Of a stretch of DNA of 64,000 nt, positions 9,463 to 52,230 are shown one piece after another (position 1 is the stretch's first letter; each line of letters starts with the position of its first letter). The notes under the pieces are model-generated. The model was not told where the DNA came from and did no database searches. It worked only from the letters and a program-made list of their open reading frames with translations. The stretch lies in assembly GCA_016195025.1 (NCBI GenBank), contig JACQAL010000076.1:1-64000 (forward strand). The letters run 5' to 3'. The position numbers were made by a program, and so were the translations under genes. Source of the DNA: Bacteroidota bacterium (GTDB lineage Bacteria > Bacteroidota > Bacteroidia > Palsa-948).

Positions 9463-10385
9463 TTCGGAATAGAATAATAATTTCACTTGTAGTTTTATTA
9501 GTCATTAGTCATTGGTCGTTGGTCATTGGTCAGGAACTCAATTGCTCGGTGCAGATTCTTTCTCCGCAGTTTCAAAATTCAACCGACAAAAAAATATTTC
9601 AAACGCTTCAGCAGTCCCTTTTCGAATTCATGAACACCCGCAAATGGACCAACGATGTGTTTCAGCAGGACGAACGCATTGAATGCAGTTTGGTCATTAC
9701 CATTACCGACCATCCTTCTTCCGATGTGTTCAAAGGCGATGTGCAGGTGCAGGTGCGAAGGCCCGTTTATAAATCATCGTATAATTCTCTACTCTTAAAT
9801 GTGCGCGACAAAGACCTTGAGTTTAAATACGTGGAATACCAGCCGCTCGAATACATTGAAAATACTTTCACCTACAATCTCACTTCCATGCTGGCGTATT
9901 ATGCCTATGTGATTCTCGGAACCGATTACGATAGTTATTCGCAGGAAGGCGGAACTGCGTTTTATCAGAAAGCGCAAACCATTGTTTCTGTTGCGCAGAA
10001 TGCCGCAGAAAAAGGATGGCAGAGCAATCAGAACGATCACAACCGCTACTGGTTAGTGGAAAATATTCTGAACTCATCGTACAAGCCGCTGCGCGAGTGC
10101 ATCTATAAATATCACCGCATGGGTTTTGACCAGATGTCGCAGGATGTGGTGAGCGCGCGCGCGGTGGTGCTTGCTGCGCTGCTGCCTTTGAAAAGCGTGT
10201 ATGAAACCAAGCCCGGCAATTATAGTTTAACGGTTTTCTTTCTTGCCAAGAGCGATGAAATTGTAAACCTCTTTATGCCTGCCGAGCAGGAAGAAAAAAC
10301 AAAACTTCTTGAGTTGGTGAATTTAATTGACCCCGCCAACACCGTTAAGTACAATAAAATTAAAGAGCAGAGCAGCGGGCAGTAG
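9459..10385 (+). CDS. porD: T9SS protein PorD (DUF4835 family)
   Basis: This 308-residue secreted protein follows coaBC, the standard place for DUF4835 proteins, which correspond to PorD of the Porphyromonas type IX secretion system. Recognisable blocks are NCSVQILSPQFQNSTDKKIFQTLQQSL, TRKWTNDVFQQDERIECS, VQVQVRRPVYKSSYNS and AYVILGTDYDSYSQEGG. The signal peptide core (VLLVISHWSLVIGQ) is encoded by tandem copies of a 7-8 base unit, ATTAGTC/ATTGGTC (about 9498-9530). PorD is needed for T9SS function, but its exact role is unclear. Other T9SS genes in the window (PorP/SprF, PorE-like, cargo proteins) support an active system. Confidence 0.88.
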   Translation: MIRNRIIISLVVLLVISHWSLVIGQELNCSVQILSPQFQNSTDKKIFQTLQQSLFEFMNTRKWTNDVFQQDERIECSLVITITDHPSSDVFKGDVQVQVRRPVYKSSYNSLLLNVRDKDLEFKYVEYQPLEYIENTFTYNLTSMLAYYAYVILGTDYDSYSQEGGTAFYQKAQTIVSVAQNAAEKGWQSNQNDHNRYWLVENILNSSYKPLRECIYKYHRMGFDQMSQDVVSARAVVLAALLPLKSVYETKPGNYSLTVFFLAKSDEIVNLFMPAEQEEKTKLLELVNLIDPANTVKYNKIKEQSSGQ

Positions 10386-14282: not shown

Positions 14283-14450
14283 CATCTGCTCTATCTGCAC
14301 GGTCATTACATATATCTGTACAACCACTGAATATATCTCTACAGTCATTGTATGTATCTCTGCAATCATTGAATATATCTCTACAACCATTCAATGTATC
14401 TGTACAGTCATTACATATATCTGTACAACCACTGAATATATCTGTACAAT
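14283..14450. repeat. 21-bp-period tandem array 1 (8 units)
   Basis: Eight contiguous imperfect 21-base units run without spacers. The consensus is close to CATTGAATATATCTCTACAAC; examples start at 14304, 14325, 14346, 14367, 14388, 14409 and 14430, and the first unit (14283) is more diverged. The array ends 94 bp before the start of the 266-aa gene. Because 21 is a multiple of 3, more than one frame stays open on the plus strand and gives heptapeptide-like repeats; no frame looks like a real gene. The surrounding 14010-14544 gap holds only this array, purine-rich GGAAGAATGGAAG repeats and AATCATTA repeats. Confidence 0.88.
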
Positions 14451-14544
14451 GGAATAAAATGCGAAAACTTTATTTTTTTCAATCTTTTGTTTACCCCAAT
14501 GGCTCATCAATAATCATTAATCAATAATCACTAATCATTAATTT

Positions 14545-15345
14545 ATGGCAAAAAGCAAAAAAGCATCACAGCAGGAATGGATAGGCGTAGGCGATGCCGA
14601 TTTCGACAGCGGGCAGAGCGGCTTCATGGTGCAGGTAAACGCCAACTTCGGAGCGTGGAACATTCCGGCAGCCGATGTAACCAACCTTCAAAACCTGCAG
14701 GCAGCATGGAACACCGCCTATGCCGCAGGCGGAAAAGGGCACCGCGCCACGCGCGATGAAGGCGACACGCAAGCGAAAAAAGACGCCAAGAAATTTTATG
14801 TGGCGGGCATCCGCCAGTTCATTGCGCAGTGGCTCCGGAAAAATAAATCGGTGAGCGATGCGCAGCGCAAACTCATGCGCATAACGGTTGCCGACACCAC
14901 CAAAACCAAACACAAAGACCCCATTGAAGCAAACATTTTTTATGAACACAAGAACATGGGCGGAGGCAAGCACCAAATCCTTTGCCGCGATTTGGAGAAC
15001 ATAAAAAAATCGCACACTGCCGATACTGCCGATGGCGTGCTGGTGTCTTATTCCATCGTGGATGTGCGCGCTCTGCAGGCGAAAGCCGAACTGCTGGCTG
15101 AAATGGCGCAGGAAAATCCTTCGCCTGCGGCAAATAAAAAAGCAGCCGATGCGCTGGTGCTCATTGACCCGCCCGATTCACCCGATAATTGCGACAAGCA
15201 AAAGGTTTTTTCAGGCGCAAAGTTTATTCTCGACCTTGGAAACGCGAATATCGGCAAAACGCTGTTCATGTATTTGCAGTGGAACGACAGCAAAAACCCC
15301 GTGCGCGCAAGTTCTGCAAGTGATTTGATTACGATTTCGATTTAG
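14545..15345 (+). CDS. Uncharacterised protein of the C-terminal GKT(L/V)(F/Y)..L.W family
   Basis: The product is 266 residues with no signal peptide. The N-terminal half is helical (NLQNLQAAWNTAYAAGGKGHRATRD, AGIRQFIAQWLRKNKSVSDAQRKLMRI). The C-terminal half looks beta-rich and ends IGKTLFMYLQWNDSKNPVRA, like a fibronectin-type end with the pattern RGKTVYFxLRW seen in uncharacterised proteins of Bacteroidota and spirochaetes. That link is from memory. The gene follows array 1 and is followed by a double GC-rich palindrome. Its last 66 bp recur at 16466-16531 (60 of 66 identical), and a more diverged relic lies at 52132-52230 beside array 3. Function unknown. Confidence 0.75.
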   Translation: MAKSKKASQQEWIGVGDADFDSGQSGFMVQVNANFGAWNIPAADVTNLQNLQAAWNTAYAAGGKGHRATRDEGDTQAKKDAKKFYVAGIRQFIAQWLRKNKSVSDAQRKLMRITVADTTKTKHKDPIEANIFYEHKNMGGGKHQILCRDLENIKKSHTADTADGVLVSYSIVDVRALQAKAELLAEMAQENPSPAANKKAADALVLIDPPDSPDNCDKQKVFSGAKFILDLGNANIGKTLFMYLQWNDSKNPVRASSASDLITISI

Positions 15346-15500: not shown

Positions 15501-16412
15501 TTATTTCGCTCGGAAAGGAATATTAGATTTTTTAAAAAAACTTTCTACTTCTGTAATTTCCTTTTCATCAAACCCTCTATAGGACAAAGAATATTTTGTG
15601 TGTGTGCTTAACTCTTGAATGCTGTTAATATCATGTACCAGGCAACGGGCTTTCACTTCATCACTGAAGGAGGAATCGAGTATTTTCGTGAGAAGAATTT
15701 TGTCCGCGCGCTTGACGGAGGGCTTTGAAGTTTTGCTCTTTAATTTATTAAACTTTTCTTCAAGTACTGAATATTGATACTTCAAATGAGAATTTTTGTC
15801 TCTCAGTTCAGTGTTTTGTTTGTCATATTCTTCGTACTTTTTAATGCCGTGTAACACTCTTTGAACAGCATAAAGCATCCTGCGTTCAGTTTTAGCAATT
15901 ATCTGTCTCACCCGTTCAGGTGTGAGAGAATATTTATTTGCTATTTGTTCCCTTGATATGTCTTCAAAATAATACATTCTTAACATGAGATAATTTCTGG
16001 GCTGCATTTCTTTTTCCTTATATAAAACCCGTGCAAGATGGTCGGCTAAACGGGCTATTTTCATGCGGTCTGCCTGCGAATGAGTAAGCAGCAAGTGATT
16101 TTCTTTTTCAAGTTCCGATTTTAAAAACAAGACCTTGCTGCCTGCTGCTGAAACAAGTTGATAACTCGAAATTATTTTATGTCGTGCAAAATGCAGCATC
16201 GTTTCCTCTGTAACATTATATGCTTTGCTCGCTTCGGCAACATCATATGCGCCATTGTTTCTGAACCGGGCAAGCAGTTCTTTCAGGGCTTCGTCCGTCA
16301 CCTGCACATTTTTAGAATCAAGAGCGGTGATTTTATTTACAAGCCCTCTTTTGATTTGCCTGTTGTCTTTTATTTTAAACAACTGTTCTAATTCTTCAAA
16401 AGTAGTTTGCAT
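15501..16412 (-). CDS. Composite regulator: HTH_17-like + sigma-70 region 4-like + alpha-CTD-like
   Basis: From the ATG at 16412 the protein has 303 residues. Residues 56-105 (YDVAEASKAYNVTEETMLHF, KVLFLKSELEKE) resemble an excisionase/MerR-like helix-turn-helix. Residues 140-185 (YLMLRMYYFEDISREQIANK, YSLTPERVRQIIAKTERRML) match sigma-70 region 4, which reads the -35 element and binds the RNA polymerase flap. A coiled coil follows (195-228). Residues 240-298 (ILDSSFSDEVKARCLVHDIN, SIQELSTHTKYSLSYRGF) resemble the C-terminal domain of the RNA polymerase alpha subunit. Regions 2 and 3 of a sigma factor are absent, so it is not a normal sigma factor. The frame stays open to 16505 only because it runs into the relic at 16466-16531. 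A TACTTTAG promoter-like element lies 25-35 bases upstream. Confidence 0.72.
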   Translation of the reverse strand: MQTTFEELEQLFKIKDNRQIKRGLVNKITALDSKNVQVTDEALKELLARFRNNGAYDVAEASKAYNVTEETMLHFARHKIISSYQLVSAAGSKVLFLKSELEKENHLLLTHSQADRMKIARLADHLARVLYKEKEMQPRNYLMLRMYYFEDISREQIANKYSLTPERVRQIIAKTERRMLYAVQRVLHGIKKYEEYDKQNTELRDKNSHLKYQYSVLEEKFNKLKSKTSKPSVKRADKILLTKILDSSFSDEVKARCLVHDINSIQELSTHTKYSLSYRGFDEKEITEVESFFKKSNIPFRAK

Positions 16413-16465
16413 GGTGTATGTTTTTTTTAATGATGCAAGTGCTAAAGTATGAAAGATTTTTCTAA

Positions 16466-16531
16466 TGGAACGACAGCAAAAACTCCACCCGCGCAAGTTC
16501 GCCAAGTGATTTGATTACGATTTCGATTTAG
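16466..16531 (+). pseudogene. Relic copy of the 266-aa gene's last 22 codons
   Basis: This stretch matches 15280-15345 at 60 of 66 bases and reads WNDSKNSTRASSPSDLITIS to a stop. It has no upstream coding part. Together the two copies flank the minus-strand composite regulator as direct repeats about 1.19 kb apart. Either a second tandem paralogue was lost except for its tail, or the regulator segment entered with a duplication of the gene end. Confidence 0.85.
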
Positions 16532-16567
16532 CAGAAGGGGGAATGTGTGTGCAGCGGTAATGGAGGG

Positions 16568-51690: not shown

Positions 51691-52047
51691 GCGGTTATTC
51701 TCATCGTATCAGCGGCTGTCCTCCTCGTGATGGCGGCTATCCTCCTCGTGATGGCGGCTGTCCTCCTCGTGATGGCGGCTGCCATCATCGTGACAGCGGC
51801 TGTCCTCATCGTGACAGCGGCTGCCCCAATCGTGACAGCGGCTATTCTCATCGGGACAACGCCTGCTACGATGATTGCAGTTATTGTCCTCCCCGGGACA
51901 ACGCCTGCTACGATGATTGCAGTTATTGTCCTCCCCGGGACAGCGCCTGCTACGATGATTGCGGTTATTGTCCTCCCCGGGGCAGCGCCTGCTACGATGA
52001 TTGCAGTTCCTGTCCTCAGCGTAGCAGTACCTGCAACGAGGATTGCG
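51691..52047. repeat. 21-bp-period tandem array 3 (17 units)
   Basis: Seventeen contiguous units of 21 bases. The first eight are close to GCGGCTGTCCTCCTCGTGATG; from 51859 two unit types alternate (ACGCCTGCTACGATGATTGCA and GTTATTGTCCTCCCCGGGACA), giving a 42-base higher period. The array is GC-rich, unlike array 1. Long frames stay open on both strands because the period is a multiple of three, so apparent ORFs here are not evidence of genes. It ends 84 bp before the relic at 52132-52230. Other parts of 51477-52386 show no gene. Confidence 0.92.
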
Positions 52048-52131
52048 GGACACATCCATTGCAAGGCGGCTCCACAAAAAAAATAGTTCAACAATATTTT
52101 GCATATTAACATTTTATTTTACATTTGTTCT

Positions 52132-52230
52132 CAAGCGGGAAAAACCTTTCTCGGCTATGTGCAGTGGAACGACAGCAAGAACAAAAACCGCAGAGGTCCG
52201 GCAGGTGACCTCATTACTTTTGTGATATGA
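52132..52230 (+). pseudogene. Relic of the 266-aa protein family (C-terminal 32 codons)
   Basis: The frame reads QAGKTFLGYVQWNDSKNKNR to a TGA at 52228-52230, clearly homologous to the end of the gene at 14545-15345 (IGKTLFMYLQWNDSKNPV). No upstream coding part remains; array 3 lies just before it. The pattern repeats the layout at array 1 with the gene body missing. Confidence 0.8.

Follow-up and report, generated by a model that had tools for sequence, protein, structure and literature searches.

A small regulator family joining a helix-turn-helix, a sigma region 4 module and an alpha-CTD-like domain in one Bacteroidota genome

The window analyzed here, a 64,000-nt stretch of DNA from a Bacteroidota bacterium, encodes a protein from a small, lineage-restricted regulator family in which ordinary parts stand in a new order: an excisionase-type helix-turn-helix (HTH), a sigma region 4 module, a probable coiled coil, and a domain like the C-terminal domain of the RNA polymerase alpha subunit (alpha-CTD). 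We document its domain homology and paralogy, the predicted fold of its C terminus, its residue changes, and its gene neighbourhood; that it binds DNA, dimerises, contacts polymerase, and activates transcription we infer from the domains. On sequence and structure prediction, we consider it an even call that the protein, which has two diverged paralogues in the genome, is a transcription regulator that binds specific DNA sequences and would bring in, stabilise, or re-aim polymerase.

Results

Domain make-up of the window protein

The regulator gene lies on the minus strand as an intact reading frame of 303 aa (P0001), from an ATG at 16412 to a stop at 15501, and the plus strand over the same interval is interrupted by stops. 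The choice of ATG is supported by the two paralogues, which begin at the same point (M-x-TT). The features of the gene are as follows.

15501..16412, minus strand: regulator gene, 303 aa (P0001); intact reading frame with full-length paralogues at G000:C19:7813 and C17:49054
16263..16412, minus strand: conserved N-terminal block, residues ~1-50, with no named domain; strongly conserved across the three paralogues
16098..16247, minus strand: excisionase/MerR-type HTH, residues ~56-105; HTH_17 and TIGR01764 in paralogues, weak in the window copy
15888..16007, minus strand: sigma region 4 module, residues 136-175, recognition helix TPERVRQI; PF04545 at E 9.3e-7 and alignment to the genome's own RpoD (TRERVRQI)
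15735..15920, minus strand: long helices, probable coiled coil, residues ~165-226, overlapping the last part of the sigma-4 module; secondary structure predicted by AF2, with low confidence past residue 180
15525..15662, minus strand: alpha-CTD-like domain, residues ~251-296, with DNA-contact positions altered; RpoA shuffle test and Foldseek match to 1z3e_B (TMt 0.82, rmsd 2.2)

An earlier note on this DNA, made from the sequence alone, had described an excisionase-like HTH at the N terminus, a region 4-like module, a coiled coil, and an alpha-CTD-like domain, with sigma regions 2 and 3 missing. The region 4 module is confirmed by a Pfam scan of the window copy, in which the Sigma70_r4 match exceeds its curated cut-off, and no Pfam model for sigma regions 2 or 3 scored in this protein, in agreement with the note; the region 2 model was likewise absent from the scans of both paralogues, and no alpha-NTD model scored in any of the three copies. 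HTH_17 matched the window copy weakly (E 0.07, residues 56-103), and PF03118, the alpha-CTD model, gave no match. Searches of this copy against NCBIfam, PHROGs, and PDB sequences added just weak matches, mainly of the sigma-4 type, and PADLOC returned nothing for it, so that in the window copy taken alone the sigma-4 part is the sole firm assignment. The HTH, weak in the window copy, is clear in the paralogues, but its placing at the very N terminus does not hold, because the conserved block of ~50 aa precedes it. The coiled coil is retained in part, as a long helix or coil predicted by AF2 at residues 165-226, mostly at low confidence.

Two diverged paralogues in the same genome

The same genome (79 contigs, 3.5 Mb) encodes two full-length relatives, of 317 aa (at C19:7813) and 335 aa (at C17:49054), that are 37% identical to the window protein. 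Both match HTH_17 (E 1.1e-5 and 5e-8), Sigma70_r4 (1e-5 and 4e-8), and RNA_pol_A_CTD (PF03118; 1.9e-15 and 1.3e-18) in that order in Pfam scans, and the domain order given in the earlier note was therefore right. The C19 HTH_17 score falls slightly below its cut-off (26.0 versus 27), and the remaining domain scores of both paralogues pass theirs. The C17 copy also matches the excisionase model TIGR01764 'excise' (6e-6), and NCBIfam rpoA models match the paralogues at the models' C-terminal end only. In PADLOC, the C17 copy gave a match to mad1 over its sigma-4/coil part (2.7e-6), which we take to be a probable case of shared HTH. The N-terminal half of the window copy is as conserved as that of the C17 and C19 copies, and intact frames together with full-length conservation at this level of identity argue for function.

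The sigma-4 recognition helix, TRERVRQI in the genome's own RpoD, reads TPERVRQI in the window copy, TRERVRAC in C17, and SGEAVRRR in C19; it is thus largely kept in the first two and divergent in the third, and the three paralogues may read different DNA. The coil or linker of the C17 regulator contains a 42-nt (14-aa) internal repeat (L007:8299-8404) whose period equals that of the nearby array.

The C-terminal domain is an alpha-CTD by descent and predicted fold, with altered contact positions

The C terminus of the window copy aligned to the genome's own RpoA-CTD with a score of 62, a level reached by none of 2,000 shuffles (mean 24.6, maximum 48). An AF2 model built on a three-row alignment had a mean pLDDT of 55, with residues 251-295 at about 70-88, and its C-terminal fold matched alpha-CTD structures in Foldseek (1z3e_B, TM 0.82, rmsd 2.2). 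The C17 model (mean pLDDT 53) matched alpha-CTD structures at rmsd ~1.0, and its best matches were alpha-CTD chains, including 3n97, in which alpha-CTD and sigma-4 sit on UP/-35 DNA. No Foldseek match reached E 0.001, and the fold result accordingly backs the sequence result and does not stand alone. The proposed alpha-CTD-like domain is upheld by the shuffle test, by this fold, and by the PF03118 matches in both paralogues. The earlier note had called for structure prediction of the three domains; the HTH, and also the coil, came out at low confidence. Judged by sequence descent and predicted fold, the domain is an alpha-CTD.

The alpha-CTDs of the paralogues are 57-63% identical to the genome's own RpoA-CTD and retain its DNA-contact residues. 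At R265, N268, G296, K298, and S299, which we take to be the DNA-contact positions of E. coli alpha-CTD, C17 and C19 keep R, N, G, K, and S, whereas the window copy has V, R, D, K, and E, a change at four contact positions (the equivalents of R265, N268, G296, and S299) that both paralogues keep. The window alpha-CTD is therefore probably not a reader of UP elements. The C17 alpha-CTD most resembles RpoA-CTDs from within its genus and from near relatives, a pattern that fits capture from the RpoA line within this lineage or close to it, although ~55 residues are too few for proof.

The full-length form was found in one genome

With the HTH and sigma-4 part as query, a search of 395 genomes of the class matched the window's own genome alone, and a search of 396 genomes of the phylum with the full-length query gave the same outcome. 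Pattern scans of bacterial and viral contigs found no relatives, although these scans rest on short query motifs that could miss distant relatives and so test absence outside the phylum weakly. Six congeners lack the full-length form. One of them, G004, encodes a shorter protein, of 191 aa, that is limited to sigma-4, coil, and alpha-CTD. Its gene (L088:7351-7926, on G004:C176) has an HTH/ImmA-type gene on one side and HTH genes on the other; a series of unknown genes comes next and may represent an integrated element. A search of the phylum with this short form returned RpoA-sized frames.

In phage and plasmid sequences, tblastn produced alpha-CTD matches only. Four of its matches were inspected: two are rpoA in ribosomal operons, one is an alpha-CTD gene of Bacillus phage Goe8, and one is an unannotated record. 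The Goe8 gene encodes a 210-aa protein (L056:1560-2192) annotated as RNA polymerase subunit alpha and matched via its alpha-CTD, and the record has two such places. The earlier note knew of no named family with this domain order, and we too found none; the open-access literature yielded no description of the HTH, sigma-4, and alpha-CTD layout, which is weak evidence of absence. Layouts that pair sigma-4 with an alpha-CTD may occur elsewhere in domain databases.

The regulator gene lies beside array-linked genes

Beyond the regulator stop, and convergent with the regulator gene, lies a member of a multi-copy gene family accompanied by tandem repeats.

14292..14450, plus strand: array of 21-bp repeats ahead of the array-linked gene; 7.6 copies by TRF, identity of 0.79 at lag 21, with random windows averaging 0.43
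14545..15345, plus strand: convergent array-linked gene of 266 aa, without a Pfam match above cut-off; reading frame and Pfam scan, family of ~23 loci in the genome
15273..15346, plus strand: 3' tail of the array-linked gene, first copy (direct repeat D2)
16459..16532, plus strand: second, solo tail copy, immediately upstream of the regulator start (direct repeat D2, 88% identical)

The regulator was said to lie between two copies of the array-linked gene tail, and it does, with 74 nt at each place. It stands end to end with the array-linked gene at a distance of 155 bp; the C17 copy stands end to end, at 137 bp, with a different array-linked gene that has 42-bp repeats before it, and the C19 copy lies 4.3 kb from a third. 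By a post hoc estimate with ~22 other array loci in 3.5 Mb, the chance that two of three regulators fall at ~140-155 bp from an array gene is ~6e-4. The array-linked proteins beside the window and C17 copies are 18% identical in a joint alignment, which makes a recent co-duplication of regulator and array gene unlikely.

Array genes also occur in other genomes of the class, where most of those fetched have 21-bp arrays alongside. None of the fetched flanks of array genes from nine other genomes contained a relative of the regulator, which the array system thus does not require; one genome, G003, has array genes and lacks the regulator, and in G004, which has the short form, no array gene was detected. 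We rejected the regulator as an obligate partner of 21-bp arrays as a general rule, since the array genes of other genomes lack such a neighbour in the flanks fetched. The earlier note had asked whether homologues also lie near such arrays; they do so in the window's genome, but the link does not extend to the other genomes compared.

The ~23 loci of the family in this genome (G000), counted from searches, include 14292-15345 and 51700-52227 of the window. Most of them come after a tandem array, of 21 or 42 bp, whose sequence is private to each locus; no unit is common between loci. The pairing of tandem array and multi-copy gene is also seen in other genera of the class. At 51700-52227 of the window and at 3997-4356 of L102, an array stands before just the final 30-40 codons of the array-linked gene, whose body is missing. 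The window is rich in 7-bp tandem repeats and their multiples (14, 21, 42, 63, and 84), for example at 9497, 18749, 57145, and 59566.

Discussion

Lacking sigma regions 2 and 3, the regulator cannot replace sigma or open DNA, and it must act on polymerase that carries an ordinary sigma factor, by bringing it in, stabilising it, or re-aiming it. In the mechanism that we propose, the excisionase-type HTH would bind an operator, the sigma-4 module would read a -35-like element, dock on the beta flap of RNA polymerase, or both, and the coiled coil would form dimers. The alpha-CTDs of C17 and C19 would bind AT-rich (UP-like) DNA and could touch neighbouring factors, and that of the window copy, with its fold kept, would probably make a protein contact instead. 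Activation by recruitment is the likeliest reading, and is favored by the sigma-4 match in the window copy and by the presence of all three domains in both paralogues. Counting against it are the lost contact positions of the window alpha-CTD, the divergent sigma-4 helix of C19, the poor whole-protein models, and the fact that the beta-flap site is normally occupied by sigma's own region 4. The earlier proposal that polymerase is held through two of its own promoter-reading folds fits C17 and C19, which keep their contacts, and fits the window copy only in part because of its four changed positions. A broader version, in which operator HTH, sigma-4, and an alpha-CTD of the RpoA line would make lineage-specific polymerase mimics, self-contained readers of operator, UP, and -35 elements that recruit polymerase to dedicated promoters, we consider doubtful.

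The main rival to recruitment is displacement, in which the protein would be a polymerase-capturing repressor or appropriator whose sigma-4 module ousts sigma region 4 from the beta flap, shutting or redirecting -35-dependent promoters in the manner of T4 gp33, AsiA, and phage gp39. The module does resemble region 4 of the genome's own RpoD, gp33 is reported to mimic sigma-4 on the flap (PMC2988020), and sigma-4 and the flap are also the route by which AsiA, gp39, and P7 act (PMC7403470); in the congener, moreover, the short relative adjoins an HTH/ImmA-type regulator gene, and this gene could be part of a mobile element. However, the helix that recognizes -35 DNA has not been lost but is largely conserved, and the extra operator-type HTH suggests gene-specific action, and we regard displacement as unlikely. 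Quite unlikely, too, is a protein that merely reuses these folds to hold DNA, for instance on the neighbouring array or gene, and never contacts polymerase: three DNA-binding folds within one chain and the spacing of two copies from array genes would suit such a role, but the absence of regulator relatives from the fetched flanks in nine other genomes, the array genes of G003, which lacks the regulator, and the want of a common array unit speak against it. That the window copy is decaying and has already lost its alpha-CTD, leaving only C17 and C19 at work, is improbable and the least likely of these readings, since its altered contact positions, missing Pfam alpha-CTD match, and rearranged spot between two tail copies are set against a full-length open frame, a well-kept sigma-4 helix, an N-terminal half as conserved as in the other copies, and a still-predicted alpha-CTD fold.

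The paralogues differ at sigma-4 and alpha-CTD contact residues and so offer a ready test of what each module contributes. Compared with known systems, the regulator shares with sigma-70 family factors a region 4 HTH with a recognition helix close to that of RpoD, but it adds an HTH and an alpha-CTD and, in the absence of regions 2-3, would neither bind the core clamp nor melt the -10 element. Its C-terminal domain is homologous to RpoA-CTD, but without an alpha-NTD it cannot assemble into core, and the window copy's DNA contacts are changed. YlxM/UPF0122 is a stand-alone sigma-4-like HTH that weakly matches the window copy (E 7e-4, 20.3 bits against a cut-off of 22.7; in NCBIfam the regulator falls far below the cut-off), but it is ~110 aa long and has no HTH_17 or alpha-CTD. 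Phage alpha-CTD proteins (Bacillus phage Goe8 and Caudovirales entries) also carry this domain outside RpoA, whereas no entry listed, compared by annotation, joins it to sigma-4 and HTH_17. The split sigma of T4, gp33/gp55, likewise has a sigma-4 mimic that acts apart from the sigma-2 part (PMC2988020); gp33, however, has 112 aa, no discernible sequence similarity to sigma (PMC2988020), and neither the HTH nor the alpha-CTD of the regulator. If the domains act as suggested, upstream promoter recognition, the reading of UP and -35 elements, could be taken out of polymerase and carried by a free-standing regulator, in natural parallel to the split sigma of T4.
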